Virus record (IMG/VR): IMGVR_UViG_3300046744_000381
Coordinates: 62,001-126,000 of that record
From: a virus
Strand: one strand, 5' to 3'
DNA: 64,000 nucleotides
Each line of letters begins with the position of its first letter. The first letter of the stretch is position 1. A model generated the notes under the pieces. It worked only from the letters and a program-made list of their open reading frames with translations, had not been told where the DNA came from and did not search any database. Below, in pieces: positions 898 through 40,207 of this stretch. The position numbers and the translations under genes are program-made.

Positions 898-2346
898 ATG
901 ACTGATTTTATACCCGGAGATTCGTATCGAATTGATATTGTAGGTGCTGATAGCACATTAATTATTGATAGCTGGCTAAGCCAAATTAAAGCAAATGTTG
1001 TTAACAGAGATGGCGTTATTCAAGTTGATACAACATTTGGTAAGCTATACGGTCCTATGGTAGGAAATGTTGAGAATGAAGAAGGTGATGTACTAGTAAA
1101 TGCTAGTAGTCGTACAGTTCATATGGATGTTGTCGGTAATTTAAAAGATTCTAACAATAACGTTGTAGTAGATGTACAACGGAGTTTGTTAAAAGGAAAT
1201 TTTGAAGGTAATTTAGTTAACACTAACGGCGATATGATTTACGATGCGTCAACAAATACGTTGGTTGTAGATAGAATAGTAGGAGATTTATATGGAACTC
1301 ATCACGGAGAAGTTGAGTTAGTAGGATCTATTAGCGGAACAGTTAATGGCAATCTAATCGGATCAAGTAATGGTACACACTCGGGCGAAGTAATGGGTAA
1401 TGTAACAGGTGATCTACGTGGTGATGTAGTTGACGGCGAAGGCAACATTATGCTTAATGGCTCCAACGGTACTTTAAATGGAAATTTAAAAGGTGGTATA
1501 TTAACTCCAGACACAGATGAACACGTATTAACGTGGAATTCTACACTAAGACATCACGTTATTAGAGCAGGATTAGAACATCCTGATTCGCACAAATCTG
1601 TTTTAAAATTAGGCAATACTGACAGAGAAACTATGTATACAGGAAACATAAATTGGTATGATGATTCTCCTGTACTTACATTGCTAGATTATGATGGTAC
1701 AGATAAACCAAGTATACTTGCAGAATTTAATGGTTGTGTAATGGGCCAAGTAATTGATGAAAATAGAGCACCAGTGCTGACTGTAAATGAAGGACAAGTT
1801 AGACTCGAAGGCGGTTCGACAGGTGAAATCAATATTGGTTACAACAGCACAGAAACAATACAAGTATATGCTGACAATATAAGTTATAAACTTCAATCAA
1901 ACCCGGTTAACACTTCTAATTTAGGACAAGTAAATTATTTTGCTTTCAACGGTGACCACGAAAATATGCTTCCACTTAATCCTGGAGATCATTTGATGGT
2001 AAACACTTGTCACGCCTGGGACGGATTGTCATATAAAATCGGAGGCGGCTTTGGTTTTTATGCAAACACAGACGTAACACCAGATCCAGACTTAGAAATA
2101 TATCCAACAGATTTTGCAATTACGTTAAGCGATGGAAAAAATTTGCCTAGTGCATTTTGGGATAATCCAACAGGATTAAATTTTGACGGTAAGGGTGTTT
2201 TAGCAGTGCCAATTATGAAGTCAAAAGGTTTTACAGAAGCAGAAAAAACTGATATTGATTATGCAGATGAAGGTATGATTATATTTAATAAATCAACCAA
2301 AAAGTTTCAAGGATACAATGGAACTAGTTGGGTTGATTTAGGATAG
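898..2346 (+). CDS. Tail-fibre-like structural protein
   Basis: 482 residues. The first half (about 30-200) is a run of short beta-strand repeats of the type GNLxG / GDVxG / GEVxGNV with polar turns, typical of fibrous phage adhesins. The C-terminus ends with a DEGMIIFNKSTKKFQGYNG segment and SWVDLG, a common tip motif in marine phage fibres. It has its own late promoter and a good ribosome site (AGGAG). It stands alone on the plus strand and converges with the minus-strand operon: the last 23 bases overlap the end of the neighbouring gene. Likely a virion fibre or whisker; exact position on the particle unknown. Confidence 0.7.
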   Translation: MTDFIPGDSYRIDIVGADSTLIIDSWLSQIKANVVNRDGVIQVDTTFGKLYGPMVGNVENEEGDVLVNASSRTVHMDVVGNLKDSNNNVVVDVQRSLLKGNFEGNLVNTNGDMIYDASTNTLVVDRIVGDLYGTHHGEVELVGSISGTVNGNLIGSSNGTHSGEVMGNVTGDLRGDVVDGEGNIMLNGSNGTLNGNLKGGILTPDTDEHVLTWNSTLRHHVIRAGLEHPDSHKSVLKLGNTDRETMYTGNINWYDDSPVLTLLDYDGTDKPSILAEFNGCVMGQVIDENRAPVLTVNEGQVRLEGGSTGEINIGYNSTETIQVYADNISYKLQSNPVNTSNLGQVNYFAFNGDHENMLPLNPGDHLMVNTCHAWDGLSYKIGGGFGFYANTDVTPDPDLEIYPTDFAITLSDGKNLPSAFWDNPTGLNFDGKGVLAVPIMKSKGFTEAEKTDIDYADEGMIIFNKSTKKFQGYNGTSWVDLG

Positions 2347-2926
2347 GAATAACTGCTTCGGCTTCTGGCCACCTAGTCGAAGATAAAGTTTCGTAAAATT
2401 TATCAACATTAATTTTCCAAAAAGTTTGAAATGTTCCTTTGTATTCAAGCTCTACAGGATTTTGAAGAACACCTGCTTTGTGAAAATACTTTGCCCAAAA
2501 ATTATGCACTTTATTTTGACTACCGACATCACCGGTGTGTGTGCTAAGATATAAAGGTTTATCTCTACCGATGCCTTCAATACAAGCAGGCAACAAAAAT
2601 TGCGAAGCGTGTGAATAATGTATATCGGTCTTCCCTTTAAGACTCTTTACTCTATCTTTTCCGATTAAATGAGTTAACACACAAGTTCTTGCACCGATAC
2701 GGTATGCATTTTTTCCTAGTATTCCTAACTCTTCTAATTTATGTGCAACTACTGTTCCTACAACTCTATTATTAAAAAGTAATAACCAAAGTTTTGCATC
2801 TTCGTATTTTTTAATATAATCTATAAGCATTTCTTGGCTGCTGTTATTATAGAATTTTTTCTTGTGTGCTTCAATAAAAAAATCAGTTAGGTCTATATCG
2901 TTATTGTATAATTTTACTTCAAACAT
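2324..2926 (-). CDS. GNAT-like protein, unrecognised family
   Basis: About 200 residues. I take the ATG at 2926 (MFEVKLYNND) rather than an upstream one at 2974, because it overlaps the end of the radical SAM gene by only eight bases, as other genes in this operon do. A strand pair WLLLFNNRVVGTVVAHK near residues 45-60 resembles the central strands of GNAT acyltransferases; the rest (YRIGARTCVLTHLIG, STHTGDVGSQ) is not diagnostic. Last gene of the coupled operon; its 3' end overlaps the convergent fibre gene. Function as an acetyltransferase is a guess. Confidence 0.6.
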   Translation of the reverse strand: MFEVKLYNNDIDLTDFFIEAHKKKFYNNSSQEMLIDYIKKYEDAKLWLLLFNNRVVGTVVAHKLEELGILGKNAYRIGARTCVLTHLIGKDRVKSLKGKTDIHYSHASQFLLPACIEGIGRDKPLYLSTHTGDVGSQNKVHNFWAKYFHKAGVLQNPVELEYKGTFQTFWKINVDKFYETLSSTRWPEAEAVIPILNQPN

Positions 2927-4292
2927 AAGTTTCGCATAAATCAAAAAAATCTGCCATTTCAGGAAAAACTTCAATATGATTTACTCCGCGTCGACGATTT
3001 TGTTCTTTAAAAAATTTATGAAAATCCTGTCTTCCTTGTATAATCTTTTCTAATGGATATTCTGTTTTTTCCATATAGTCAACCACACGTCTAAACTTTT
3101 CATACTCAATTGTACTAAACGCATCTTTACGTTCGTCGTCTACATTTTCTTTAATAAATTGCAAATGATCACGCATATAACTAAGATATTCTTTTGGCAA
3201 AATATTCATATCATATTGTAAAGGTTCTTTTAAATGTGGAGTATCAAACCCCAAACGTTGCCATCTATGTGTATCGACATTATTGTATTTTTTGCGCCAT
3301 TCTAATATTTTTTCTAACAGTGTACGGAATGTTGTTACACTAAAAATATTAAATGTAATCATTAAAACCATCGGTGCTTCGCAATTACGCATAAAGTAAT
3401 CTAAGTTGCGTTCAAACACTTCAATGTCTAATCCATCACGAATATATTCTGCACGTTTGCCCCAAGTATCAATACTTGTAAACATTTTAAAACGTCTAAT
3501 CTTATTATTTGTTAACAAGTTGTTTACACGATCTGTAAATTTTGCTAATTGTTTCGGTTTGCCGCCTAAGTTACTGTTACAATTAAGTTCTAATTCTGGC
3601 TTCGGATCTGCATCAAGCATATCAAATAATCTATATGTACTTTGCTGGATAGTCGGTTCGCCACCTGTAATACGTAGTATATGTAAATCTTTACTAAGTT
3701 CGGGCCACCATTTCCAAAATGCATCCAAATATGGATTATTTTCTTCTTCAAATATTTGAAACCAATCAATGTCGCATCTATGATTTTTTACCATATCATA
3801 AGGACCGTGTTGCTTGATCTCTTGATAATATCTGCTACTTGCTTTTGGATGACAATATCCGCAACGGAAGTTGCACTCGTTGCCAAACGAAACTTCTAAG
3901 TATTCTGGATTAACATCAAACTCTGCACCACCTTCTTTAACAGCATTTAATCTATGTTTAAAGAAAATAGTTTGATTGCGTTGTTTTCTGTCACTAACAT
4001 AGTCTTTACCCATTGCTTCAATCTTCCAGCAATAGTTGCATCCACTGGGCTGTTCGCCCTTCATCATAGCAGCACGTTCTGCTTTCTTTTGTGCTGTGTT
4101 GTGTATAGCACTAGGATTTTCCAGTAGCGGTGCTGTATCAATCTTGTGAGGAGCAGGATGATAACAACTGTGTGTTTCACCTGTTTGAAAATATATGTTT
4201 GCGTGATACCATTTAGCAAAACAAAACGTTGGAGATATTTCCTGCGTAATCTTATCGATACGCTTGATTTCTTCGCTTTCGCTACGTTCCAT
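2919..4292 (-). CDS. Twitch-type radical SAM protein
   Basis: 457 residues. The core motif ECNFRCGYCHP gives the CxxxCxxC iron-sulfur site at C140, C144 and C147, which binds the 4Fe-4S cluster that cleaves S-adenosylmethionine. LRITGGEPTI (near residue 205) is the usual GGEP SAM-binding element. An N-terminal segment with FCFAKW, HSCYHP and CNYCWKIE supplies further cysteines, as in twitch/SPASM auxiliary-cluster domains that act on peptides. Proteins of this architecture are known in marine T4-like phages, but the substrate is unknown. Start overlaps the preceding stop by one base (TAATG). It lies among glycosyltransferase-like genes, suggesting macromolecule modification. Confidence 0.88.
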   Translation of the reverse strand: MERSESEEIKRIDKITQEISPTFCFAKWYHANIYFQTGETHSCYHPAPHKIDTAPLLENPSAIHNTAQKKAERAAMMKGEQPSGCNYCWKIEAMGKDYVSDRKQRNQTIFFKHRLNAVKEGGAEFDVNPEYLEVSFGNECNFRCGYCHPKASSRYYQEIKQHGPYDMVKNHRCDIDWFQIFEEENNPYLDAFWKWWPELSKDLHILRITGGEPTIQQSTYRLFDMLDADPKPELELNCNSNLGGKPKQLAKFTDRVNNLLTNNKIRRFKMFTSIDTWGKRAEYIRDGLDIEVFERNLDYFMRNCEAPMVLMITFNIFSVTTFRTLLEKILEWRKKYNNVDTHRWQRLGFDTPHLKEPLQYDMNILPKEYLSYMRDHLQFIKENVDDERKDAFSTIEYEKFRRVVDYMEKTEYPLEKIIQGRQDFHKFFKEQNRRRGVNHIEVFPEMADFFDLCETYV

Positions 4293-5215
4293 TACTGTTC
4301 TCTATCTAAGAATTGTTTGCTGTTGTCACGTGCAGGGTTTTGATATACTGTTTTAAAAAACTTGCTTTGATTTCCATCAAATGGTTCGGCAGCAATAGGC
4401 AAATCTAGTTCATCTATTAACGAATATCCAAGGTCAACTGTGTCCTGTTCCATTTGATCTTCATCTAACTCTTTGTTGTCCCAATAATTGTTTAGCCATT
4501 TAAAATCACGTACATTTACAAAGTCCCAATCTGTACACATAGTTTTATATAAACCTTCTCTTGCTCCGTAAATAGCCCAACGTCCATTTTCTACATCTGC
4601 ACCAATCATTTGCCAGATGTATAAACGATGCAAGTTTTTCCAATGATTATTTTTAAATTCGTCAACTGTTACACGTAGTCCTTGATCTAGTGCCATCTTA
4701 ACGCCTTCACGGAACCCAGCACGCCACGCTTGATGAGGTGTAGCATTATTATGTACATCGCTAAAAGTTCCGTTCATCTGTACATATTGTGTATTCCAAC
4801 AAAAATCAACTTGAGCGTGTTGATTATCTGCAGGTGCATTTTCGTGTGTACGCATATCAAGAACATATTGCTTTGGCCAACATTTTATTCCTCCATTACC
4901 GTAGCTCAAGCCATTTATAACATTTTTTGCAGTCCAACTTATAACTTTATCTGTTAAATCTAAATTTTCATCAAAGTCTATTGCTTGTGAAAGGAAATCA
5001 TCTCTAATACAATTATCGCCATCAATAGTAATAAATCGATCAGTTTCACTTAATTCAGCACAAGCCTTATGAGCTGCATCAGATCCTTCGACACCGTGTA
5101 CACGTTTTGCCCACGGAACTTTTTTGCACAGATCTGCATAATTTTTTTCTGCATTTGGTTCATCGTAACTAAGATAAACAATATCATAATCAATTACACG
5201 GAATGTATTAGCCAT
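4292..5215 (-). CDS. Glycosyltransferase-like protein (GT-A fold)
   Basis: 307 residues. An early strand DIVYLSYDEPNAEKNYADL, then FITIDGDNCI near residues 90-100, where DGD is a likely metal and sugar-nucleotide binding DxD equivalent. A tryptophan- and asparagine-rich acceptor region follows (FCWNTQY, NHWKNLHRLYIWQM). This suggests a family-2-like sugar transferase, but donor and acceptor cannot be read. Start ATG overlaps the upstream stop by eight bases, and its own stop overlaps the radical SAM start, so the genes are probably translated together. Confidence 0.7.
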   Translation of the reverse strand: MANTFRVIDYDIVYLSYDEPNAEKNYADLCKKVPWAKRVHGVEGSDAAHKACAELSETDRFITIDGDNCIRDDFLSQAIDFDENLDLTDKVISWTAKNVINGLSYGNGGIKCWPKQYVLDMRTHENAPADNQHAQVDFCWNTQYVQMNGTFSDVHNNATPHQAWRAGFREGVKMALDQGLRVTVDEFKNNHWKNLHRLYIWQMIGADVENGRWAIYGAREGLYKTMCTDWDFVNVRDFKWLNNYWDNKELDEDQMEQDTVDLGYSLIDELDLPIAAEPFDGNQSKFFKTVYQNPARDNSKQFLDREQ

Positions 5216-5768
5216 TTATAACCTCGTGGTAGTATGTAGAAAACTTTCTTATAGTATAAAGGCTTACGTTAATATTGTCAATTTCAAACTTACTGGTAAA
5301 AGGTATTTTTTTTGTTTTAGAGAAATCTAATGTTTTATACAAAACGTTAGGATCGAATAACTTTGTTACACTGTATACCTGATTGCTAGGATTAATAGAG
5401 ATTTTTTGAGATTGCACATAATTTTCAAAGTCTTTGTTCAGTTCTAATTCCCAGCACTTACTTTTGTTATTTTGTTTTATTTTAACTTCGTAAGTGTCTT
5501 TGATTTCTTTTGGTATTTCGTAAACAAAATTTTGTGTATTAAAACTTTCGTTATACTGCTGTTTGCTTTTTAATACATATCTTTTTTCAATAAAGTCATA
5601 TTCAACTTTATAATCACGAAGTGATTCTTTGCCTTCTGCAAAATGACGAACTTGCTCAAAATCTACTAATAAGTTTTCAAAGTTTTCATCAGGGTTGCGT
5701 GTAACTTTATCAATTACACCGTTTTCATCAAAACAAACGTATCTATCAGTGCTAATTGTAATTCTCAT
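5208..5768 (-). CDS. Hypothetical protein in the early operon
   Basis: 186 residues, lysine- and glutamate-rich, mixed alpha/beta, no signal peptide, membrane segment or catalytic motif that I recognise. It begins MRITISTDRYVCFDENG and is held in the operon by four-base overlap upstream and eight-base overlap downstream, which is good evidence that it is expressed. Confidence 0.7.
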   Translation of the reverse strand: MRITISTDRYVCFDENGVIDKVTRNPDENFENLLVDFEQVRHFAEGKESLRDYKVEYDFIEKRYVLKSKQQYNESFNTQNFVYEIPKEIKDTYEVKIKQNNKSKCWELELNKDFENYVQSQKISINPSNQVYSVTKLFDPNVLYKTLDFSKTKKIPFTSKFEIDNINVSLYTIRKFSTYYHEVING

Positions 5769-6610
5769 TGTATTCCTAAATACTTTTCATATATGTTAAT
5801 TATACGGTCAACTACAAAGTCATCTTCTGTATAATGAAAAACTCCAGCTTGTGTATAATTGCCTATTTTAAGTTGCAAGTCTTCACCTAAATATGTGCCT
5901 ACACGATTTTGCCATTTATCAACTACACTGTTTTGCCAATTTTGTATTCTTGGCTTCATATGTACAAAGCTAGGATATTTAGCACGTGGGTTTGTTACTT
6001 GACTTTCTATGCCCATAATCTTTACAGCAATAGCACTTGATAAATCTATACTGCATTTACGTTGATACATTTTACCGCCGGTGTGTTGTCTATAAAATTG
6101 TTGCCAATTATTTGTTATCATTTCTAGCCAGGTGTAAAACTCGTGTGCAGTATCTGATTTTTTATAATAATGTAATCCACTGTATAGATTTGGTAGTTTG
6201 TTTTTTGCAAATGTGTGTCTATAGTAATCATTTGTTACAAGTTCGTTTCTATAAGTGTAAACATTACTTGTAAAAAACAAATCATAGTTTTTTAAAAAGT
6301 TAAACCAACTGCTAATATCTTGCAAAACAAGCATATCAGTATCCATAACTAATGATTCGTCATATGGAGTTGCGTGATATGTTTTCCATCTATTTTCTAT
6401 TTTCCAATCACTATCTTTAGCGTGATCTCCCCAAGGTATTTCTACAATATCATCGAAAATTTGTTTGTATTTGTCTTGCACTGTATCGTTGGTTATTAAA
6501 CATATTTTTGCATTTTCGTTAGTAGCACGAATACTCATAGCATTTAAATATGCTTGTTGTACATAATCAACATCTGTGTTCTGTGCAAGCATTGTAAAGT
6601 TATTGCTCAT
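5765..6610 (-). CDS. Glycosyltransferase-like protein (GT8-like)
   Basis: 281 residues. N-terminal FTMLAQNTDVDYVQQAYLNA and ICLITND match the first strands of GT-A enzymes, and ESLVMDTDMLVLQD (near residue 90) gives a clear DTD (DxD) metal site with the following strand, as in glycogenin/GT8-type enzymes. It is a paralogue of the next gene upstream (same VDYVQQA/INYVNQA and MDTD blocks). Its start lies inside the end of that gene (11-base overlap). Acts presumably in the host cytoplasm with a nucleotide sugar; target not evident. Confidence 0.75.
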   Translation of the reverse strand: MSNNFTMLAQNTDVDYVQQAYLNAMSIRATNENAKICLITNDTVQDKYKQIFDDIVEIPWGDHAKDSDWKIENRWKTYHATPYDESLVMDTDMLVLQDISSWFNFLKNYDLFFTSNVYTYRNELVTNDYYRHTFAKNKLPNLYSGLHYYKKSDTAHEFYTWLEMITNNWQQFYRQHTGGKMYQRKCSIDLSSAIAVKIMGIESQVTNPRAKYPSFVHMKPRIQNWQNSVVDKWQNRVGTYLGEDLQLKIGNYTQAGVFHYTEDDFVVDRIINIYEKYLGIQ

Positions 6611-7418
6611 TGATAACTCTCGCTAAACTAAACTTATTCATAACGTGTAAATTACTGCCTTTAAATTTTACAAAAGTGTATTCCCCAAGTCTGTCTCGTT
6701 TTTCTACTAGTAAATCAAATGCATCGTCTTTTATTGATAGAAGTATGTCTCTATCAATTGCATAAAACTTTTTGCCAGGTATTGTACCAACAAAATTGTT
6801 TTCTGTGTATCCAGATAGTATATGCACTGCTATACTAAATGCAAAATCATTTCTGTACACAGTATTTTTAAATTGATACACACCTCTATAGTGTATATAA
6901 TTTTCTTTTATATGTTTAACTAAATTAAAAAAAACTTCACTTGTGTTGTTTTTTCTAAAATATATTACAGTAGCCCAATAAAAATCTATGCCGCCGTCAC
7001 TAATAGATTTAAATTCAGGTGTGCCATTGTGTATTCCTAAATGTGTTGCATCTTTGTATAACAAAAGATCTTTTTGCTGTGTAAAACAATTTAACAATTT
7101 ATCATTTGCTATTATATAATCAGTGTCCATTACAATAGTTTCTTCATAAGGAGATAAGTCGAAACTATGCTCTCTGCCGTAATTGTTAAAATTAAGAACA
7201 CGTTTGTTTAATGAACCATCTCGGTATGCTTTTCTGCTTGTTAATCCATCTTCTACTTTTATAATCTGATCAAAACACTTGTTGTCAACGTCAACATTGG
7301 TTACTAAACTCACAGGTAATTGTAGATATTTTTGTATGCGGTTCGCACAAAAAATAGCTTGGTTTACGTAATTTATACTTTCATTGTTAAATGCAAATAA
7401 TAGTACACCTTGACTCAT
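6600..7418 (-). CDS. Glycosyltransferase-like protein (GT8-like), paralogue
   Basis: 272 residues. VLLFAFNNESINYVNQAIFCANRI and VSLVTN strands are followed by YEETIVMDTDYIIAND near residue 95, with the DTD metal-binding motif. Similar in length and motif order to the downstream neighbour, indicating tandem duplication and divergence. Start overlaps the stop of the upstream small gene by four bases (ATGA type), so translation is coupled. Confidence 0.75.
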   Translation of the reverse strand: MSQGVLLFAFNNESINYVNQAIFCANRIQKYLQLPVSLVTNVDVDNKCFDQIIKVEDGLTSRKAYRDGSLNKRVLNFNNYGREHSFDLSPYEETIVMDTDYIIANDKLLNCFTQQKDLLLYKDATHLGIHNGTPEFKSISDGGIDFYWATVIYFRKNNTSEVFFNLVKHIKENYIHYRGVYQFKNTVYRNDFAFSIAVHILSGYTENNFVGTIPGKKFYAIDRDILLSIKDDAFDLLVEKRDRLGEYTFVKFKGSNLHVMNKFSLARVINEQ

Positions 7419-7762
7419 AAATTCATAATACTTTCAACAGATCTTTCATTCATAAGTTTATTGTATTCTGTTAGGAATCTATTTGAATATGATTGATAAT
7501 TATTAAGAATTGCATTTGTAAATTCTTGTAAGTCTTCGCATTCAACAGGTATATCATTATCATCAATAATAATAGTTGACTCTTGTTTTAATGAAAGTAA
7601 GCTTTGACAAAAACTTATAAGTTCACGAGTAATGGAAAATTGACCGCCTTTGTAATACAAAACAAGATTTTCTTTGTATTGTTCTTTTAAGATTCTTGTT
7701 TGATTATTCAAGGTAACCATATAATTGCTTATCTCAAGGGCTTTTTCAAGACGTTCGTCCAT
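7415..7762 (-). CDS. Small hypothetical protein, first gene of early operon
   Basis: 115 residues, largely helical, with STIIIDDNDIPVECEDLQEF in the middle and NRFLTEYNKLMNERSVESI at the end. Small proteins of this appearance occur in marine T4-like phages, function unknown to me. It has a strong ribosome site (AGGAG) and follows a sigma70 promoter at 7789-7817, making it the operon leader. Confidence 0.7.
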   Translation of the reverse strand: MDERLEKALEISNYMVTLNNQTRILKEQYKENLVLYYKGGQFSITRELISFCQSLLSLKQESTIIIDDNDIPVECEDLQEFTNAILNNYQSYSNRFLTEYNKLMNERSVESIMNL

Positions 7763-7788: not shown

Positions 7789-7817
7789 AGTATATAACAA
7801 AATTTGATAAATGTCAA
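7789..7817 (-). promoter_or_regulatory. Sigma70 promoter for the glycosyltransferase/radical SAM operon
   Basis: On the minus strand TTGACA (7812-7817), 17-base spacer, TATACT (7789-7794). It begins just past the stop of the upstream adhesin gene and would start transcripts near 7782. No NTAAATA motif is seen here, so the operon is probably early rather than late. Confidence 0.8.
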
Positions 7818-7820: not shown

Positions 7821-8906
7821 TTAAAGTGAACTATCTACTGCACCTGTTGGTGGTGTTTGTACAATAGCATTAAATGTGCTTGCACCGATATTAAATGTAC
7901 TATTAGGAGTAAAAGTATAAAGATTACTTGTCACTGTGCCGCCGACTTGTTCATCAGTGGGCGAACCTTGCTCGCCTGATTCTACCTGATAACCTGTACC
8001 TGTATCACTGTCATCAAATATAATTTCAAATATCATTTGACTGTCGTTTGGGATAACTAAATTAATTTGATATTCGTTATCATCATAAATTTGTTCTACA
8101 GGAATTGCTCCTGTGTTGCCTCCTGAGACACCGCCGCCTACTTTTGTATATAACCTAGTAGCACTATTAAAAAACCCACCACTAGTTGCACTGTTTGTGC
8201 TTATTGAACCTAGTGCATATTCGCTACCAGTTCCGCCTGTTCCTAATGATTCTGTAAAATAATTTGTTGCTTTTTTCCAAAAACGTATTTTACCCATTTC
8301 TGCTAGTATTCTATTCCAGTCCCAATCTTTACTATTTGTAGTACCAGTTGTTCCTCCTGTGAGACTAGCATCAAATCTTATTTGTCCACCTGCATTAAAA
8401 AAATGATTACGTGCATTCGCACTACTCCAACTTACAGTAACTCTATGTCCGATTCTATAAGTTCCGCCTGTGCCCCAAGCAGTTGATCTTGTGCTTGTTA
8501 CAGTTGTAGAACTACTGGTTAGCATACCTGCTTCGTCAAAATTTGCAGAAGGAAATTCTGTTGTATCTCTGTTGAAAGATATTACATCATTGACAAACAA
8601 AGTAAAATCTGTTATATTGGCCCACTGAATTATATCGCCAACATCAACCCTATTCAATGCTATTCTTGTATTATCAGTAGCAAATTGATGTATATGTCCC
8701 GCTTGCAAATCTTTCCATAAATCGTATTGTTGTAAACTTGTAATTACATCGCTAACGCCAGGGGTACTGCCGCCGACAACTAAATCACTTAAAAGTGTAC
8801 GTCCATATCCTAAATCAACATTACTAGTAGTAGGACCAACAATCGGCGACATCAGATTATGGATGCCGTTATAGTCTGATGCTAATATTGGTGTTCCGAC
8901 TGCCAT
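7821..8906 (-). CDS. Structural/adhesin protein with FFNAGG domain
   Basis: 361 residues. The N-terminus (MAVGTPILASDYNGIHNL) looks like a virion attachment module. The central and C-terminal part carries NHFFNAGGQIRFDASLTGG, the WNRILAEMGKIRF helix, and a beta-rich C-terminus with a VFEIIFDDSD-like block. It shares this domain with the next gene upstream, so the two are paralogues. Nine bases separate it from that gene, and AAGGAA precedes the start. Probably a tail or fibre component in the late minus-strand cluster. Confidence 0.65.
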   Translation of the reverse strand: MAVGTPILASDYNGIHNLMSPIVGPTTSNVDLGYGRTLLSDLVVGGSTPGVSDVITSLQQYDLWKDLQAGHIHQFATDNTRIALNRVDVGDIIQWANITDFTLFVNDVISFNRDTTEFPSANFDEAGMLTSSSTTVTSTRSTAWGTGGTYRIGHRVTVSWSSANARNHFFNAGGQIRFDASLTGGTTGTTNSKDWDWNRILAEMGKIRFWKKATNYFTESLGTGGTGSEYALGSISTNSATSGGFFNSATRLYTKVGGGVSGGNTGAIPVEQIYDDNEYQINLVIPNDSQMIFEIIFDDSDTGTGYQVESGEQGSPTDEQVGGTVTSNLYTFTPNSTFNIGASTFNAIVQTPPTGAVDSSL

Positions 8907-10118: not shown

Positions 10119-11624
10119 TTATGTTTTCAAAACACACTCAACTAATTTCTCGTCTTCACTGTCATTAGATTCTAATGCTACTCCAACAAGTGCGGTTGTT
10201 TGTATAGTGCCGCAAACACCATCTTCCCAAGCATATACTGCCTGACCTTTTGCAATAGGACCTTTAACTCTTACAGGAAGTCTTCCTTTTAAACCAATGT
10301 ATTGACCGTCTGCATCACTGTTCATCATTACAGCTGGATCTGTAGATACTACACCAATACACATATCACTTGCTTTTGCTGGTTCTACTTCGTGATCTGG
10401 ATGTCCGCATACTGCAACTGCTGTACCTGCTGGCAATTCTTCAGCAGTGGTATATTTCTCTGCAAGGTCAGCATATCTAGCACGAGTAGCAGTACCAGTA
10501 AAAATATTTGCAACTAAGTTACCGTTTGCATCTCTGACTGCTACTGTATTAGCATCTGCGTTTATAGAGCCAGTTCTATCAACACCATCTACAACTAATG
10601 CACTGGCTTTTGTAGCTGTGCCATTAAATGTAGTTGCGTGTACTGTATTCCAACGTGCGCTAGATGTTCCAATTGTATAAGCATTGTCAATACCTGGGAT
10701 TAGTGCAATATCTGTTCCATTTGTAAATCTAGCAATTTCTAGTAAGCCAGTACCTGATGTGTATGTTTGAAATTTTATTTCATCGCCAATTAAATTAGAT
10801 AATGTTGCTTCATTGCCGTTAGTTACGTGTACTTGGAAGTCTAAACTATCTCCAATTTTTATACCTGCATCGTCTTGAAAATTAACGGCTGTGCCTGCGC
10901 CTGCAGATCTAATAAATTCACTAGAATCTAAACCATCAAATTTGAGAGCATTACTTGCTGATCCCCAAAAGTAAGGCAAAACTGTGTCATCGTCTACACC
11001 TGTAATACCTGTACTAGGTGTTCTAATTAATGTAATACCTTTTTTTACTACCGGAAAATGTCCCGGAATATCATAATCATCTAATGATGCTGGTTGATTG
11101 CTACTAGGTGTAAATGCTGCATCACTAATCATATAAACTGGATTGTTATCGATTAATGCAATTATAACTGGCACAGTTACATCTGATGGCGCTGATGCAA
11201 CATTTGTACTTAATAATTGTGTTGTTCCTGATCCTGCTGCTTGAGGTCCTACTAAAATAAATTCATTTGCACTTGTTCTTGCAAATAATTGATTTGTATT
11301 ACTATTATACCATAGGTCCCCTTCAACAAGGCCTGCTGGTTGTGAAGAACTTACTTCTGCTCCACCTGCTGTTTTCCAAGTTGTTCCTGTGTAATATTTT
11401 AGTTTGTTTGTTGAACTGTCAAACCAAACTTGTCCGCTAAGTGCTTTGCTTGGACTGGTCGAACCTGCAAAACTTTCTAGTAAAAATAAAAAGTTTTCGT
11501 TTTGCGCCTCTCCATAACCACTATAGTTTTTACCAATTAATTTTAAGTCAGTTGTATTATCAACTGTGCCGTCTTCAAGCGATAGTAATTGCTCTCCGCT
11601 AAATCTGTTAATTATGTATGCCAT
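10119..11624 (-). CDS. Tail fibre/adhesin with shared N-terminal module
   Basis: 501 residues. Residues 1-160 carry LIGKNYSGYGEAQNENFLFL, LLESFA, GQVWFDSSTNKLK and GDLWYNSNTNQLF, a module also at the start of the next two upstream genes. The middle (about 215-380) is fibre-like beta repeats with FDGLDSSEFI and NTVHATTFNGTATKA. The C-terminus has ARYADLAEKYTTAEELPAGT and IGLKGRLPVRVKGPI, a tip domain seen in phage fibres with self-cleaving or capping ends. A late promoter lies at 11644-11650. Probably a receptor-contacting fibre. Confidence 0.75.
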   Translation of the reverse strand: MAYIINRFSGEQLLSLEDGTVDNTTDLKLIGKNYSGYGEAQNENFLFLLESFAGSTSPSKALSGQVWFDSSTNKLKYYTGTTWKTAGGAEVSSSQPAGLVEGDLWYNSNTNQLFARTSANEFILVGPQAAGSGTTQLLSTNVASAPSDVTVPVIIALIDNNPVYMISDAAFTPSSNQPASLDDYDIPGHFPVVKKGITLIRTPSTGITGVDDDTVLPYFWGSASNALKFDGLDSSEFIRSAGAGTAVNFQDDAGIKIGDSLDFQVHVTNGNEATLSNLIGDEIKFQTYTSGTGLLEIARFTNGTDIALIPGIDNAYTIGTSSARWNTVHATTFNGTATKASALVVDGVDRTGSINADANTVAVRDANGNLVANIFTGTATRARYADLAEKYTTAEELPAGTAVAVCGHPDHEVEPAKASDMCIGVVSTDPAVMMNSDADGQYIGLKGRLPVRVKGPIAKGQAVYAWEDGVCGTIQTTALVGVALESNDSEDEKLVECVLKT

Positions 11625-16274: not shown

Positions 16275-16281
16275 TATTTAT
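16275..16281 (-). promoter_or_regulatory. Late promoter overlapping a stop codon
   Basis: ATAAATA on the minus strand in the context CGATAAATACAATAAGG. The TAA stop of the giant gene (16278-16280) is part of the motif. It drives the 201-residue protein and the fibre genes downstream. Confidence 0.7.
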
Positions 16282-19200
16282 CGGGCGAGCTTATATGTGC
16301 TATCTGTTAGGAATCTGCTTATAGTGTTCTTACTGCTTGCAAGACTTATTCCGTCATCATTCCAAATTTTACCAGTTTTTCTAATTATTCTAATTTCAGT
16401 ATCAGCAAGAGGTGCAGTAACTAATGTTAAAATATTATTTTCAACAGTAAATTCTGCTGGAACTACTACATCTCCTCCTGGACTATCTTGATCTAATGCT
16501 TCGTTGTACTGATAATAATTAGTATCAGCAGTAGAATTATTTGGATCAATTGGTGTAGCTTTTCTTAATCTTGTACCAGCTACAAAAACATCAAATTCAT
16601 TAACACTTGTTGGTGTCCAATTTAAATTAAATGTTTTTGCTGCACCATCACCTGTAAATAGTTGTGTATATGTAGTATCTTGGTAAGGAATAGTCTCGCT
16701 TACACCTTGATGGAAAACTCTGCTATTAGCTGAATGCACATCTTTTACACCAGTTCCTAGTGTTCCTCTTCTTAATTGTCTTAATACATTTCCTTGTTTT
16801 ACAAAATATTCAATTCTTTCACCGTTTATAAAAATTATACCAGGAATTGCAAGCTCTTTATTAGGTTCATCTAAACCATCTGAACTTTTTAAGTTAATAC
16901 TTAGATCATACCAATTTAAATCAACTGCTAAATCATATTCCATTCCGCTGTTAATTCTCTTATAATGATATCTATTGAGAACGTCTTTGAATATTCTATA
17001 TGCAAATTTCTGCTTACTTACATCAGCAGTAAAATATAATATTTCAATTCTATCATTTTTTATTGGGCGCTCACTTAAAATAATTGATTGTCTATTATCA
17101 GATAATGTATAATCTGCTTGCGAAGTTAAAAACTTGCCATTTAGAAATACCCAAGCATATTCAGGACCGGGTATTTTCTTGTCTAGTTTTATTTCACCTC
17201 TGCTAAGTAAGTTTCTTGTAAGATAATTAGCAGATCCTTCTGCTGCATTTGTATCCTCATATGAAACACGTAAACTTAGTCTTTCAAATTCATTTGTATC
17301 GTGATTTGAAAATACATAAATTTTTACATCTTGTGTAGGAATATCTTTTAAACTTAATCTTTCACTATCTACAACTCTGATACTATCAATTTTAAAATCA
17401 GTGCTATCGTCAAAGTATAACGACGGCGTATCGTCTTTAGCAGCAAGTGCTATTAGATCCCTAACATATCCTTGTAACTTAATTGTAACTTCTTGTCCAG
17501 TCTTTGTATATTCCTGTACAGTACCAATTACATTAGTGCTATCATTGAGTGTAAAATTAATTTGATCTAATGGAGCGTAATCAACTAACGTGCCTGCATT
17601 GCTTAATTTAATTACTGTATCTACAAAAAAGTATTCTGCATTGTCTATTAAATATACTCTAAGTATATCTCCAGATTTTCCAATTTCTCTGGTTGTAAAT
17701 TCTATTCTGCCGTTTGTAGTACTGTATATATAATTTATAGGATCAACTAATTGATCATTTATATAAACTAAAATATCTAATTGAGAAATTTTAGTTTGAT
17801 CTAATAATTGCCAATTGTCTATTTCATATGCTCTATCAACTGTCATAGTGTGCTTTTTGACATATCCAGCATCTAAAAATTTATCGCCTACTTTAACTAG
17901 GATATTATGACTAATTGGTTTTTTGTTAAACGGCAGTGGTACTGCACCATTTGATCCAAAAGTGTGTGATCTTTGTGTAGATACAGTTCTATCAAACGTA
18001 TCATCTATTGCAAGTTGACTGTATTGCTTTCCTGTACCTTTATAAAGAGTATATGTTATAATGCTATTAGCCGGTGGCACTTCACCAAATACAAGCATAA
18101 CCTTATTTGCATTATCGCCATATTCAGGTCCTGATGCATCTAATCCAAAAGATGTACTTATGACTCCGTTAACACTTACTACTGCCGTTACGTTTTGTTC
18201 AAACTTATAAAACGTTACAAAGTTAGCAGTGTTACCGTCACCAGTAAACGTATCACTTTCTATTATGTTAGACCCATTTGTACCAATTGTCAAGAAAGAA
18301 AGATGCTTTCCAACTGGTAATAAACTACTATCCGAAATCCTAAGTAGTTTTTCTGAATAATCTATTTCATACTGTGCAGGATCTAAAACAACATTATCTA
18401 ATTTTACAATTACACTATCTTGTGTAGCTGGTAAATTTTCTAAATAGTATTCAGCACTGCCGCCATCTGTTCTAAAATTTTGTACAGTAATTACGCCTTG
18501 TCCGTCATTTACACGCTCGTAAACTTGTAGATCTAGTGTATCTAAAATTTGTCCAGGTACTTGTTCTTCGGTACCTTTACTTGTTGTTGGACTTACAAAA
18601 TCATCACCGTCAATTACAATATTGCCTGCGTCAATGCCTGTTGCTGTACTAAACTGTCCTGCAACATTTGTTAAATCGCCGCCATTTATTTGTGTATCAA
18701 AGATTACGCCACTTGGTGTAACTGCACCATCGCTTGTTTCTTTTCTAACAATTATCGTATCGCCGTCTCTAGTTACTAGTTGATCTTCATCTAGTATAAA
18801 TGTGCTTGTTATTCCGTCACCTGTAATAGTCAACATTATTGAATCTTCTGGTGCTTCTGATGTTCCGTAAGCTTCACTATCAATTCTTACAGGATTATCA
18901 TTAATACCTGCTGTTGCAGCCTTATAATATACATTATATTTTACACCTGCTTCAAATGGCACACTAACAGTTATTGATCCTGTACTACCATCAAGCACAA
19001 ATACTTCATCTTCTAGGTTCCCACTAAATCTATCAAATGGTGTAGAACCAAATAAATCTCCGTTGTTAAAACCTTGTGATGCTCCAAAGCTTGCTGTATC
19101 AATTTGCACACCGCCATAGTCTACGCCATCCATAAGTTGAGATAATTCTTTACCAAACTGACCAGTTGTTGGATTATAGTAAAAATTAATTCTATCTGAT

Positions 19201-22200
19201 GCACTTAGATAATTCACATCTTTGTCGTATTCAATTACGATAGTTTTGTTATTTGATGGTGCATTTGCAAAACTCACTACACCATAATATCTTGGATAGG
19301 TTACAGTTTTATCTAGTATATTACTAATACTGTAATCTGTTGCTAGTTGTTCAACTCCGTCTACTGTGACTGTAATCTTAGAAGGCCTAACATCAATTGG
19401 CCATTTTAAGATAAAATCAATTTGTGATCCTGTACCTGTAAATGTTTGCGTAACATCCAAATCAGTAACAAAATAACTTCCTGTAATCCTATCAAACTTT
19501 ATTAACATATGTGTTGATCTAACCGGAGAATTGCCAATGATAGCAGTTGCTCTAGCTGGCTTGGCTGTACTATAATCTTCTTGATCACCTTCAAATGTTA
19601 AAGTAGGAGCTGTTATATATTTTAAGTTTGCAAAATCAATTACAATACCTGTAACTTTGCCTTCGTTGATAGTGGTAGAACCAATTACTGTTGGGCCGCC
19701 GCCACCGCTCATAACTAATCTAGGTGCATTTGTCCAGCCAGTTCCGCCATCTGTCAATACAACTTCTTTTACTTCAAATCCTACATTGTCAAACCAATTT
19801 TTTTGAGGATAAGTTGTTACAAACTCACTGTAATTTCTAATTTGACTATCTAAGACTTGTGCAGTTTCTGATACAATTTTTTCAGCATTTAAATCATATC
19901 GTGGAGGTAAATCAAAATCAGTTACGTTTGTTTGTGTAGGATCAATATTTTCATAAGCACTAACAAATTCTCTAATTTTTGTGCTATAAGGTTTTACTTC
20001 ATTTACATAGTCGTTGTAGCTTTCTAAACTATCACTCTTGTATGTTGTTTTTTGATCTAATCCACCTACGTTATGTTTTGCTTTTATAAATGCAGTTTTG
20101 AATATCCAATCTATGGTCGGTTGTTCAGCAAGTGCATATCTCACACTACTAAAGAAAAGTTTATTCCACTCTACTTTCAATTCGTCTACAAATATAGTTT
20201 GATTAATTGTGTTTAAAATTATTCTTACTTCTTCGCCTGCATCTCTGTCATACAATGCGCTATCGTAAACTGCTTTGTCGAATCCAAAACGTTCGTTGTT
20301 AAATAACAATCTACTAAATTCTATAGTTCCGTTTTGTCTTCCTATTGTTTCATAGTTTACAGTATAATCTACTTCTAATTGATTATCTATTTTTTTCAAT
20401 AATAACCAACCACCAGAGCCAATAGTTTCTATTTTTATAATATCGCCTAAATTGTCTTTTAGCCCACCGAGAGCATAACTTCCTGGTACTAAGTAATCAA
20501 TATTTGTTTCTTTACTGTAGCCTTCTGCATACCAATCTATGTATTTCCAATAAAGGCTGGCATCATAACTTTGATTATTAATACGTATCCATTCTTTTTC
20601 GGTTGAATTCCAGATATAAGTTGCCCAAAAACCTAACAATGTAGTATCAGTTGTAATTAATGCAGTAAATGGCCTTACAGTAACAGTCGTAGTTGTTGAA
20701 TTATAATTTTTACCTTCATTTATAATATTTGCTTCTATAACTTGACCAAGATTATTAATAACAGTTTCAATTTCAGCTCCTATGCCAGAACCTGTAATTG
20801 TAACTTTTGGACCTCTACGTTTAGTATCAGTTGCACTGTTAAATGCAGGATCAATATAGCCTCTACCTGCATTTGTAATAGTGACTTTTGTCAATCTGCC
20901 ATCTACAATATCAACACTTAATTGTGCTTGGTCTAATTTAGATGTACCGATAAAACGTAACAATGTTTCATTCTCTACAACAGTATCGTATTCTCTTGAG
21001 ACATTAGTAGGTTGTGGATCTTTAGAAGATAGTCCACTTATATCAAATTCATCTACAATTAATTTTTTTGATAAAACAAGATTTATTCTTTCGATAACTT
21101 GCTTTAATGCTTCTGTACGGTTTACAAACATTGTTTGTAAAGGATCATCCAAAATTCCATATCTTCTAGCCGGACTTAAAGTTGTTACAGGTAACAATGT
21201 TCTTTGTTTATCGTATCCTACTAAACTATCTATCCATTTACTTACAACTCTATCATTGGGCTGACTTGTAGCAAGACCTTCTGTAAGAAGGTTGTATTCT
21301 CTATGTATATTATTAATTTTTACTTCTTCAGTATTATAATATTCAAAATGCAAAACAGTGTCAGTGTCTTTTACTAAATTTGTACAATTGTATATTGCAA
21401 AATTATTTCTTCCAAACATACCTAAGAATCTATATCCGTTAGCAGCAGGATCCTCAATTAACGATGCAACAGCATTAGCAGTAATAGTTCTGTTTGTAAT
21501 TGTTGGTAAAACTTTTGAGTTTTTTACCCAATAGTAATATTTTGCCGAAAACAAACCAGTAATTGGATCGTAAACATTTTTTCTTACATATCGTTGATTG
21601 CCGTATCTAGATACACCACTTACACCATCTGCTAAACCTTCTGTGGTATCTGCAATAGCGTCCCATTCGTCTGGTAATAATGTTGAAGATACCCATTCAT
21701 AGATATCAATACTGTAACCAGGTATAATTTTGTTCCAAACATTAGAACTATAATCAGCATTTTTTTGGTATGGATTATACCATTTGACTGCATTCAAATC
21801 CCACAGCAACTCGCCAACACGTTCTTCGCCCCAAGGATTAACTACTCCGGTATTTGTATTACCAATATTATACACTGCTGGATCATAATAAAGTTTATAA
21901 TTTATTTCTCTTTCAGCAGCATTAGCAATTTTACCTTGGATAGGATCTATCAAATCTATATATGTAATTAAATCACTTGTTACACTATCGTATAAAAAGG
22001 CTCCACGCATTTTATCATAATTAATAAAATCTGTTGCTTCGCCAAGCGTGTTCCAGTTTGTAATATCTTTGTCGTGACGTAAATCAAAAATTAAACCAAA
22101 TTTACTATCACCTGTGTCTAATCCTTCAAATCCTAGATACAAGTGATTATTTTGATATAATATTTCTACATCATCGGCAGTTGACAAGTCTCTTTGTAAT

Positions 22201-25200
22201 GTCAGGCCGTTGTCTATATAATATGATTCGTAATCAATAACTTCACTTACAGTGTAAATTTCATTCAAAAGTTCGTAAGTATATGCTTGCGGTCTTCTAC
22301 TTGAAAAATCATATAACTTTGTACTATTATTATCAAAGGAAGTAGCATTTGAATCAAATTGTGTACCACCAATATTTAAACCATTAATACCAATTACACA
22401 TAATTTATTATTACTAAATTCAACCTTATATCCGAATCTTTCATTTTTACTAGAAGCAGGAGCTTGTAACGTCTGTGTGTTTTCAAAAGCAAGCGAAGAT
22501 GAATTATATTTGTAAATATAGACAAGTCCTTTATCTATACCGGTATCGGTATTTGTTTCTATATCTGCTGAATTAGCACCTACTGCTATATAATTTCCAT
22601 CGTCACTTAATGCTACACTTGTTCCCCATAAGATATCTGTATTTGGCGTAGTGATAGCTTCATAAAAAGCATAGCGTCCTTCTTGTAATCTATATACATT
22701 TACTTGAAATTCATCTGTACTAGTATTAAAAGCAGTAAATGTTAAAACTTCACCGTTTGTGCTTACATCAATATTTTTTCCTGCTTGATTCGTATTGTTA
22801 AATGCAGTGCTGTCATTATCGCCTTGAATTGTTGAACTGTAAGGCAAATAACCAAATCTGTCTACATTATTATCAACACTTTCCCATAACGCAATATCTG
22901 TTGGGCCGTTACCGCCTTTTGGAATATCGACTTTTGCTTTATACAGTTGTCCATTTTCTTGAACAATAGCACCAGTTACATATGAATGGAAGTTATCCCA
23001 GTCTCCTCTAAATGTAACATCTATTGTTCCTCTCATTTCCATTATAGAATAAGTTGTGTCGTAAAGATAAACTCTACCGTTATTGCCTTCACTGCGTACA
23101 TAAAGTTTATATGTTTCATCTGTAGTAAATGCAGTTTCCAAGCCAATACCAAATTTTTCATCGCCAGTAGGTTCATTTGAAACAAATTGTTCTAACAAGT
23201 AATATGAGTTATCTAGATTTTTCTTATATACATAAACAATACCTTGGTTGGTTAATCCACTTGCATATCCTTCATCGTCTGCAGGAATTTTGTAGACTTG
23301 TTCCCAATCTCTACTGTTTGTATTAATGCTACTACTATCATCATCTGTAGCCCTTTTTGCTCTCCATAACGTGCCTCTATCGCTTACAATATCATCTTTT
23401 AAAATGTTGAATGATGATTCAGCTTCGCCCCTGTATCGTGTTTTAACATTACTTGCAAGAGGCGCTGCTACGAACATAAACTGACCATCTCCGGAAAATT
23501 TAATTTTTTGGCCAAATGCACTTGCACTATTATGTAAATTTGTAGGTACAATTATTTCTTGTATAAAGTTTAACGTTTGTGTTTCGCTTGACCTAGTATA
23601 AACATAAACCTTGCCATCTATTGGCCTACCGACTGCAAATATACTATTAAAGTCGTTTACAGCAAAACTAGATCCGTATCCGCCGTCTCCGTTTTCTATG
23701 TTAAACAATTCTTGTTTTCCTGAGAAAATTTTGTTGTTTTTAAATACACCAAATTTGTCATTTGCAACATTATCTATCCAGATAGTATTGTTTTCATTTA
23801 ATCCAAATTTATTAATATCTGCATTTACATTACTAGGAGTATCGTAACGTTTTGAAAGTAATTTAGTAATAATACCAGTAGTACTATCATTCAAGTCTAA
23901 AAATTCTTCATTAAAAGTAATATCAGCTACTACACTGACAACAGTACCAGAAATATTGTTTATTTTATAAAATCCGTCGATATTATCGTCAATAAATTGT
24001 ACACCAAATATTTCACCTATAGCTAAATCAGGAATACTATCAAATTTTAAATCAAATCCTGTAGTTGTTTTAGTATATGTTTCAACTCTGTTTGAAATAA
24101 GAGTGTGTTGATATATGTTCCAGCTATTTTTTTCTGACGTTACCCAAATTATATTATCTATCGGGACATTGGCTATATCTAATTCCAAAATATCATTTGG
24201 TGTTTTAGCAAGAAAGTCTATTTGATCTAAACTAACATAGCCAGCAGTTTTAGAATATTCATCTGTGCTATATTTGTAAGGAAATGGATTTTTGGTATAG
24301 TTTTGCGGTTTTATATAAACTTTTGATTCAGGAATTTCATAAACTAAGTCTGTTCTGTTTGTGTCCACAGCATCAACAAGTTCAATTAATTGAGGTTCAA
24401 TTCTAAATTTTGTTTCGTCTAGTTTATATTCAAGTTCATCAAATGTATCAGTTGCGCCGTATTGAGCATTTCTTATTGCCCATTCTTCATAAAACTCTAA
24501 ACTTTCTTGATCTGTACTTCCTAATTTATCAAAGAATTTAGTTAAACTATTCAGTGTTCCTTTTTCTTGGATAAATCCTTGATAAAATTTATATTGGCTA
24601 ATATCATCTTCAATTATATTATCAAGATATTCTCTTTTCTGATAACCAATCAAATGCTGCGCAAGGCGTTGCTGTTCAGTATCAAAATTATCTGTATCTA
24701 AATCATAAAAATCTGCAAACTGATTTACTTTGTAATCAAAGTTTGCTTTGAGACCGCTTTCTGGTCTATCGTCTAATCTATTCCATAAACTGCTGTCAAA
24801 TACAGAATCTCCACTTATAAATATATTGGCTGAATAATAAAATTCTTTATATTTTACTAAATCGCCAAGTGCATAATCCTGCCACTGTTCCCATTCTGTA
24901 ATATTTGCTTGATCGTAAATAAATCCTGGAATATTTAAATTACCATTCCAATTATCTGTTCTATAACCTACAACTTTTATACGTTCTTGTCTATACCCAC
25001 TTGATGGATTATATATTGTATCATTGAACACTGTTTTATTATCTATAATTACCGAATGATCTTTTTGTATCAAACCTAACTTGCAAAAGTAAATTGCATT
25101 GTCAGCAGTGTTTGGCAAAATAGTAACACTATTACCGGTATCTCTACTAATATTAACACTATAATCTTTGACCGCAGTTCCGTCTAAATTAAGTATTTTA

Positions 25201-28200
25201 TAACCAAATATATTTTCCTTAACATTATCTATAACAAAATAATCTTTTCCAAAAGTCAAACTATTTGCACACGGACTTAGTGTAATTATTGTTCCTACAC
25301 TCCAGTTTTGTGTTGTATAGAATAGAAACTCTTTTATGCTTAATGTCCAGTCTTCAACGGCTTCAGTTTCACGGTTAAAAAAGTCAAAAACAAATCCTTG
25401 CTTTTTTAAGTAATCTTCATAACCCTGTATAAAATCTACAACTTCTTGTGCAGTTGCTAATACTGCACCGTAATTAATTGTATTAGTATCGTTGCCAAAG
25501 TTTTTTCTAAGAGTTGCAGTTGCTCCTCCGATAATAGGCAAATTACGTAACGGACTATAGAAACTTGGATCAAATTGATCAGTTGTTGTATGGTTTACAT
25601 TTACTCTATAATATGTATTTTCATATCTTACAATTTTACCTGCAATATATTGTTTATCTTCTGTCCAATATAAAAAGCTTTCACTTATGCCCCCTACATT
25701 AATCGCAATATCATTACTAGATAAAATCGGAGTGCTATAAGTAAATACAGGATTTTCTTTGTCATATCCAGATATTTTGAATCCGTTTGTTCGTTTTTCG
25801 ATAATAACACCGCTATATGTTACAGTTGTAAGTGGAGAACTTTGTACCAAATCTATCTTATAATTTTCAAATGGAACAAAAACATTTCCTTTATTAGAAG
25901 GATTTTTGCTATCTAATACAAGTTTTAATTTTTGTTTTTCACCAAACCCGCCTAACTTGAATGCAATCTTGTGTTTAAGATTTTTTAACTTTTTTGTAAA
26001 ATTTTCATATTGACTAGTTACGTCACTTGCCATATAATCGTAAATGTAGTTACTAAAGCCTGCAGTCAAAATTTGTTCTCCATCTTTTTGTGTGTTGGTA
26101 CACAATAAGTTAGATAATTTTATTCTTTGGCTAGTTTCTCCGTTGTATACAAGTTGCCCTGTTAAATTTCTGCTAATTCTTGATCTATCAAACCCAACAC
26201 CTAATACTTGTGCCGGTCTATTAATCATAATTGCTTTTAATAATGCAAAAGGATATTCGCTACTACGTCTCCAAGCAGTTTCAGTAGGTGTATGATCACC
26301 AAATTTAAATGTTTGGCCATTTTGCACTGAAAAACTAAATTCATTTACATAACCACTGTTTAAAGGACTACGTACATTACCGTTTTGGTCTACAGGAATA
26401 TGTTTTGTTAATCCAGGGCGAATAAATCTTTTATCAGTACGTATTAGGTTGCTAGATCTAATTATACCTTTTTCTAAATCATTCCACAGTACTAGATTAT
26501 TTTGTGTATAAGGTGCAGGGCCGTATTTGCTTTCCCACCACGAAGGCTTTACACTTAATCCAAGCATTTCCCAAGGACGTAAGTTTGGCGAATCAGTATC
26601 ATAAGCATTAATATAAATGCCTCTCCAAAATCCTGCTAACGGTAAATTATTTTTATTGCTTCCAAAACCGTAATTATATGTAAATGTTTGTGTTTCAGAT
26701 ACAAAACTATTATCAGTATAATCAGCATTACCTGCTTTTGTTAACCAGTTTACAAAATCACTAATAAGAATTTTATTTAAATCACCAACTTTTACTTTAC
26801 TATTTCTGTATTCACCACTTACATAATCCCAAATATCAAATATACTCTTGTCATACGAAACTTTTATGTTATTGTAAAATCTTTTTTCTAATTCTAATAA
26901 CAAATTATCTCTATAATCGTTATAACCAATTATTATACTTCCGTCGTGTCCTCTGATCGCTGTTTGCGCTTCTTGATATGTTGTGTCGGAAAATACTTCT
27001 GGCTTGTATGCAGGATACAATCCTAATTTTGTAGGTGTTTGAGGAATATAGCTACCATTAGTAGTTTCATATTCGTATATCTCAATCATATCGTTTAGCA
27101 CTAAATTAAACTCTGTAGTGAATTGCACAAAGCCTTCACTAGTAAAAACATAATCTAAATTTACACAAACTTGCTCACCATTTACATAAACGTTTACAGC
27201 TTTTTCACTTAATGTATCTAGAGTAAACACATTTGATAATGCATAGAATTTAATATCAGGGTCTAAAACTTTGTGTTCTATTTTTTTATTTGCGCCAATA
27301 CCTGTCATATCTGAATGATAAAAAGGCATACTTGATTTTTTATCTTTTACTAATGATAATAAAACTTGATCTACTTGTTCTTTTATTGATCCGTCTAAAT
27401 TTAAATTTTCAGCTTCTTGTACAAACGCCCTTTTAAATTTACTATATTCATTTTTGGCAAAGTTTAGTGCAGCAACTAAATTATTTTCTTTGTTACTGAT
27501 AGTAAATAATGGCAAATTAATCGGTCCACTATGTTGTACAAATTTTCTACCGTATTTTTTTACATTTCCTAGATCACGCAAATTGTTTGCGCCAGGTTGT
27601 GTTCCTACAAAGTTAGGTACTTCTTCTGCAACGCTATCCACGTGGTCGCTGACTTCACCTAAAGTAAATTGTGTAATGTCTTCGTTTAAAGGATTTCTTT
27701 CAAAATTATGAGCAGTTTCATAATATCCTTTACTTGTTTTATTTGCTGTTTTTGAATGAGCTTTAATTATTAAAATATCATCTACATTTAAGTCAGTAAA
27801 AAACTGTACATTTATTCTGTTATTTGCATCAGTGGCAAAATTAAAATCAACGCCTTGTTTTTTTACAATATTGTTTACATAGACTATAATTTTTAAATCA
27901 GCAACAAGAGCACTCTCTTTGAAAACATCAACAATAAAGTTATTTGTACGTTCTTGTCCAGTATATTTTCTTATAACGTATTGTTTACTTAATGAAGGAG
28001 CCTTTACCCAGCCATTAACATAATTAAAATCTACACCTCTATGTTCAAATTTCTTTAAAAATCCAGTTGAGGTAGCAACTTGAAATACTTGATTGTTTAC
28101 TTCATATGTAAATGAATCTTTTAATAAACTAAAATCAAATAAAATATCACCAGTATTGGCTATATTTTTGTAAGACAAAGGAAATCCTAATTCTGGATCA

Positions 28201-40188: not shown

Positions 40189-40200
40189 ACTCCTATAATG

Positions 40201-40207
40201 TATTTAG
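40201..40207 (-). promoter_or_regulatory. Late promoter for the baseplate operon
   Basis: CTAAATA on the minus strand followed by CATTATAGGAGTATG; 14 bases are identical to the late promoter at 45070. It abuts the -35 box of the rightward gp55 promoter. Confidence 0.75.

Follow-up and report, generated by a model that had tools for sequence, protein, structure and literature searches.

An ordered operon of glycosyltransferase-like and radical SAM genes behind the tail genes of uncultured T4-like phages

Radical SAM Islands in T4-like Phages

Marine T4-like phages can carry islands of glycosyltransferase and radical SAM genes, which earlier work described as variable cargo with no clear use, and the hypervariable islands of these phages collect mixed genes (PMC7029224, PMC3037559). 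In pelagimyophages, the host recognition cluster between VrlC and gp14 is an island with glycosyltransferases and radical SAM cassettes, which was read as host-surface modification (PMC7029224); the hyperplastic region of cyanomyophages is comparable (PMC3037559). Twelve radical SAM genes are present in the T4-like genome TARA_ERS488813_N000010, in connection with which Fe-S supply is discussed (PMC5332604). Here, we describe a six-gene operon, g1–g6, that combines glycosyltransferase-like genes with a radical SAM gene. It is located in a 64,000-base window, which corresponds to bases 62001-126000 of the 136,876-base virus record IMGVR_UViG_3300046744_000381. One part of such an island is thus found to be strictly conserved and apparently precisely regulated, and it can be defined gene by gene.

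The source phage is T4-like, as indicated by homologues of the gp23 major head protein, the gp20 portal, the late sigma factor gp55, and the gp46/47-type SbcCD subunits. Like the pelagimyophage and cyanomyophage islands, the locus lies beside tail fibre genes and contains glycosyltransferases, LPS (lipopolysaccharide)-type genes, and radical SAM cassettes (PMC7029224, PMC3037559). Unlike those variable cassettes, the operon is strictly ordered and has its own conserved promoters. The capsid protein shows 67-70% identity to its best matches, Vibrio phage 2.275.O, Sinorhizobium phage Phosso, and the PA5oct group, which does not support close kinship to pelagimyophages. The island adjoins fibre genes. 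TARA_ERS488813_N000010 shares with the source phage the expansion of radical SAM genes in a T4-like genome, but an operon with glycosyltransferases is not described in the parts of that paper that were read (PMC5332604).

A cluster in which genes for N-twitch-type radical SAM proteins and for GT8 enzymes are intermixed is also found in the Vibrio phages K566 and K567 (OZ196521, OZ196593). The K566 cluster (record positions 160041-180190) contains five of these radical SAM genes, interspersed with two Pfam GT8 genes and one GT4-like gene, and its neighbours are LpxC (140 bits) and a gene annotated as PagP. In contrast to the operon described here, this cluster has no match to g1–g5 and is located in a nonstructural region. 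K566 is an isolated phage and might serve as an experimental model. The initial annotation of the window considered a combined peptide and sugar modification pathway to be new in a phage; this is too strong in view of the similar islands (PMC7029224) and of the 12 radical SAM genes reported in one T4-like genome (PMC5332604). A description of the six-gene operon itself was not found in the open-access full-text literature, although an earlier one may exist.

Conservation and Proteins of the Operon

Seven coupled minus-strand genes had been annotated at 2324-7762, and their coordinates proved exact: g1 (7415-7762, 115 aa), g2 (6600-7418, 272 aa), g3 (5765-6610, 281 aa), g4 (5208-5768, 186 aa), g5 (4292-5215, 307 aa), g6 (2919-4292, 457 aa), and g7 (2324-2974). 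The successive overlaps from g1 to g6 are 4, 11, 4, 8, and 1 bp. The overlap of g6 and g7 is 8 bp if g7 starts at the in-frame ATG at 2926 (2324-2926, about 200 aa), which keeps all overlaps within 1-11 bp, whereas the listed TTG at 2974 would make it 56 bp.

The genes g1–g6 form an ancient, strictly ordered operon of uncultured T4-like phages. Independent searches started from g6 and from g1 yielded 240 viral loci, a number that includes overlapping ones. Among them are 90 distinct g1 sequences, at most 95% identical, and co-occurrence was counted in the 72 that have at least 6.5 kb of downstream sequence. The genes g2, g3, and g5 accompany g1 in all 72 of these distinct relatives, g4 in 70, and a radical SAM gene in 71, and the order of all detected genes is identical. 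Joint occurrence in relatives, on which the initial annotation had staked its operon, is therefore confirmed for these six genes. Homologues of the upstream tail genes are found on the same strand in 72/72 distinct relatives with enough upstream sequence. When the count is started from g6, 32 of the 46 distinct loci with at least 5 kb upstream have the g1/g2/g3/g5 set, ten lack the complete set but contain a g5-like gene, and four have neither. Taken together, the two counts indicate that g1–g5 are essentially always accompanied by a radical SAM gene, while the reverse is not true: g6 is also found in loci that lack g1–g4.

Between the source phage and most relatives, the amino-acid identity of g6 is 76-96%, while the tail proteins mostly show 31-60% in the more distant pairs. 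Recent transfer was considered as the cause of the high g6 identity and was rejected, since fourfold sites differ by approximately 40-60% between the source phage and most relatives. Diverged fourfold sites together with a conserved protein reflect purifying selection.

According to its sequence, g6 is an N-twitch radical SAM protein with a predicted auxiliary Fe-S domain. It matches the NCBIfam model NF033640 (N_Twi_rSAM) with 300.8 bits (cut-off 170) over positions 1-398, so the radical SAM enzyme with extra N-terminal cysteines that had been predicted here is well founded. Seven cysteines are invariant in orthologues: C24, C43, C85, and C88, and C140, C144, and C147 of the CxxxCxxC motif CNFRCGYC (3852-3875, minus strand), the expected site of the SAM [4Fe-4S] cluster; GGEP is also present. 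Peptides, sugars, and small molecules all occur as substrates of twitch-type radical SAM enzymes. A search of the PDB by sequence revealed no convincing solved relative of g6. Among 50,697 annotated phage records, the nearest proteins are those of K566 and K567, with 26.7% identity over half of the g6 length; in the same records, g1–g5 have no matches. The cellular homologues found are chromosomal, show 37-39% identity, and belong to Bacteriovoracaceae and other proteobacterial metagenome-assembled genomes. NF033640 and Bacteriovoracaceae proteins have the same domain order and cysteines as g6, but the bacterial loci that were read have no glycosyltransferase neighbours matching g1–g5. Two of the chromosomal homologues (L176:7959-9344 and L178:7845-9389) share a conserved neighbourhood.

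A profile comparison shows the proteins g2 and g3 to be homologous (E 1e-13), which makes them tandem paralogues, as the initial annotation had proposed. The DTD motif is conserved as well: it occurs in all 28 aligned g2 rows (positions 98-100), and both of its aspartates, D90 and D92, are invariant in g3. Other invariant residues are H258 and K262 at the C-terminus of g2, and H217 and H259 in g3. A weak match of g3 to the GT8 enzyme glycogenin-1 (E 0.007 over 94 positions) suggests a GT8-like character for g3 and its paralogue; g2 itself has no PDB match by sequence.

A third GT-A-like enzyme had been annotated, and the structure model supports the assignment of g5 as a GT-A-like glycosyltransferase with a D65-x-D67 motif. 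The model has a pLDDT of 84.7 and a pTM of 0.86, and a Foldseek search of the PDB gave 20 matches with E of at most 1e-3, all of them glycosyltransferases or a polysaccharide polymerase. The GT-A match has an E of 8e-5 and a probability of about 0.99, but a TM-score of only about 0.3. A sequence search gave no convincing solved relative of g5. For g4, the fastest-evolving gene of the block, the structure model is fairly confident (pLDDT 83.6) and has no fold match in the PDB, and in BFVD it matched only uncharacterised proteins of uncultured phages. The start (MDERLEKAL...) and length of g1 are near-constant, and a sequence search of the PDB gave no convincing match to it. No strongly hydrophobic 19-residue segment is present in g1–g5, which is consistent with soluble enzymes.

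The seventh gene does not belong to the operon. Among 22 cases, g7 lies on the same strand as the operon in four and on the opposite strand in 18, and it is best regarded as accessory. Its annotation as a GNAT-like protein was not upheld either, given that it has no Pfam, NCBIfam, or PDB match and no profile match to the GNAT of the neighbouring island.

Promoters and Timing of Expression

The operon lies within a block of tail genes. The gene directly upstream of g1 is u_361 (7821-8906, minus strand), which encodes a tail or virion-type protein; further upstream is the tail fibre-like u_501 (10119-11624, minus strand), and on the other side the fibre-like f_482 (898-2346, plus strand) is convergent with g7. 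The late character of the block, stated in the initial annotation, was borne out: the [AC]TAAATA motif precedes f_482 in 33/33 relatives (at -23 in the source phage) and u_501 in 29/29, while sigma-70-like sites are rare there (1/33 and 0/29, respectively). A simple count of the T4 motif TATAAATA or of CTAAATA was rejected as a late signal, because neither is enriched over the whole window; the motif carries information only where it stands upstream of tail genes.

In this setting, the operon has a host-type promoter, P1 (TTGACA-17-TATACT, 7789-7817, minus strand). A site of this type with at least 10/12 matches is found approximately 50 bases upstream of g1 in 35/35 distinct close relatives, although the spacer sequence has diverged. 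Shuffled upstream sequences reach at least 10/12 in 4.6% and 11/12 in 0.4% of cases, which rules out a chance occurrence. P1 was thus correctly recognised. A second TTGACA-17-TATACT site, P2, is located within g4 (5253-5281, minus strand), 66 bp upstream of g5. It is present at -66 or -67 from g5 in 38/42 close relatives and in 12/32 more distant ones. Its aspartate codon is GAC in 31/31 sequences, compared with 28% elsewhere in g4, and its threonine codon is ACT in 31/32, compared with 33%; these sequences are related by descent, and the counts therefore carry no formal probability. Since the site is kept by codon choice at silent positions, P2 appears to be a genuine promoter serving g5–g6, the two most conserved proteins of the block. 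A sigma-70 promoter held in this way inside a coding sequence suggests that the timing or dosage of g5–g6 may matter.

The promoter type is not uniform across the group. Of the 88 distinct relatives whose upstream sequence is available, 72 carry a sigma-70 site, 12 show only a TAAATA motif, and four have neither. The first two classes are near-exclusive, and the promoter type therefore seems to have been switched in some lineages. Exclusively early expression as a rule was rejected, because these 12 relatives carry the late-like motif instead. Read-through from the upstream tail genes into the operon is also possible, as no terminator-like site was seen between u_361 and g1. Judging by the promoter sequences, early expression is probable and well supported in the clade of the source phage, but it is not universal.

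Sigma-70-like sites also precede the virion-type gene u_361 in 29/36 close relatives, and some of these sites overlap a TAAATAC motif, so a host-type promoter alone does not mark a non-virion gene. In three loci (L057, L065, and L029), the site upstream of u_361 is TTGACA-17-TATAAT fused with AATAAATAC, i.e., early and late signals overlap. Perfect sigma-70-type sites also occur in the source phage at gp55 and at the gene at 1-831. The site at gp55 is one half of a divergent pair (40188-40257), in which it faces the CTAAATA late motif of a structural gene across one short intergenic region.

Possible Role of the Operon and the Surrounding Island

Beyond f_482 and outside the window, genome bases 43284-57374 (L090:1284-15374) hold another nine radical SAM genes, which together with g6 bring the genome to ten radical SAM matches, six of them above the family cut-off. 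The island also encodes nitroreductases, a SET-domain protein, aspartyl-hydroxylase-like oxygenases, a UDP-glucose-dehydrogenase-family protein, an aminotransferase, and a GNAT; SDR-like genes and PP-loop ATPase-like and QueC-like PP-loop proteins were recognised by eye. In a relative with a 97.8 kb record (G001, L180-L182), a 40 kb stretch contains approximately 20 radical SAM genes, in an order partly shared with the source phage; another ten records, 81-236 kb in length, show 5-17 radical SAM matches each.

We infer that the operon modifies a glycan or glycoprotein. The reading that we tentatively favour, at somewhat below even chances, is an early remodelling of the envelope glycan (LPS-like) of the infected cell. 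The host RNA polymerase would transcribe the operon early in the clade of the source phage, and the soluble proteins g2 and g3 (GT8-like) and g5 (GT-A) would add sugars to an acceptor, most likely an LPS-like envelope glycan of the infected cell. The g6 enzyme, with its own auxiliary Fe-S domain, might oxidise or epimerise the sugar or the acceptor, g1 and g4 could be adaptors or scaffolds, and the radical SAM/sugar/oxygenase island beyond f_482 might supply further modifications. An altered envelope glycan would change the receptor and shut out competing phages. The UDP-sugar dehydrogenase, aminotransferase, GNAT, and SDR-like genes (the last recognised by eye) of the island speak for this reading, as do the conservation of the operon and of P1 and P2, the enzyme assignments of g2, g3, g5, and g6, the K566 cluster, and the published interpretation of the comparable pelagimyophage region (PMC7029224).

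Modification of the phage's own tail adhesins, whose genes lie immediately upstream, by glycosylation and a radical-based peptide change, is a possible but somewhat less probable explanation. Early transcription would then ready the enzymes before their late substrates appear. The tail-type genes upstream in 72/72 distinct relatives, the fibre gene downstream in close relatives, the late-like motif in place of P1 in 12/88, and the possible read-through from tail genes are all consistent with it. However, T4-like synteny alone could explain the fixed genome position, the sigma-70 promoter is kept in most relatives, unlike at u_501 and f_482, and in the more distant pairs the radical SAM protein is far better conserved than the tail proteins next to it and so does not follow their divergence.

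Three observations tip the balance slightly towards remodelling of the host envelope: most relatives have sigma-70-type promoters, there is a resemblance to GT8 enzymes, and the cognate cluster of K566 has LPS genes as neighbours. Tail modification stays close, given that the operon is invariably placed behind tail genes and that some lineages carry a late-like motif. Several points weigh against the envelope reading. The strict link of the operon to tail genes and the replacement of the sigma-70 site by a late-like motif suit virion modification equally well, g2 and g3 have no Pfam match at E of at most 0.1, the GT8 model PF01501 included, and the LpxC and PagP neighbours are found only in another phage lineage. 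The host-type promoter led the initial annotation to early expression and from there away from virion building; the promoter holds in most relatives, but this second step is weakened by the late-like motif in a minority, the constant position after tail genes, and the possible read-through. More speculatively, the glycosyltransferases and the radical SAM enzyme might form a dedicated pathway whose joint product is an unusual glycoconjugate, altered by radical chemistry and placed either on tail proteins or on the host surface; the radical SAM genes in tandem would then be a diversifying toolkit.

Production of a small molecule or modified peptide acting inside the infected cell, similar to ribosomally synthesised and post-translationally modified peptides (RiPPs) or glycocins, is unlikely. 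The abundance of radical SAM genes in tandem would fit, as would the nitroreductase, oxygenase, and (by eye) PP-loop ATPase-like genes of the island and the S-glycosyltransferase SunS among the g5 fold matches. However, the match to SunS is explained by the widely shared GT-A fold, no precursor peptide gene was identified, and the operon has neither a maturation protease nor an exporter. Still less probable is hypermodification of phage DNA against host nucleases by radical base chemistry and glycosylation. T4 relatives glucosylate their DNA, and the early promoter and the QueC-like PP-loop protein (by eye) agree with such a role, but no similarity to DNA glycosyltransferases was found, the genes are located in the tail block, and the GT8 resemblance points to glycans. 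Ordinary island cargo without a selected joint function is scarcely credible: such islands do gather mixed genes (PMC7029224, PMC3037559), but the gene order is the same in 69-72 of the 72 distinct relatives, silent sites have diverged while proteins are conserved, and the promoters are conserved.

With six genes defined, the role of radical enzymes for a phage is now testable. If the product is indeed a radical-modified glycan or glycoprotein, it would represent new phage chemistry in an abundant uncultured group.

Several other features of the region can be noted. Nitroreductase, oxygenase-like, and SDR-like modules are repeated at L089:14133-19967 and L090:81-4427, apparently by duplication inside the island. 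The minus-strand gene at 1-831, which continues in L090:19191-20000, encodes one protein of approximately 546 aa, with degenerate repeats resembling the GT-A N-terminus followed by a g5-like end domain; its sigma-70-type promoter at 866-838 is a perfect 12/12 match. A subtilase with a plastocyanin-like C-terminal domain is encoded just downstream of a tail fibre-like gene (L089:5605-7539, plus strand), and the tail block contains an ORF (open reading frame) of 4592 aa at 16278-30056 on the minus strand.

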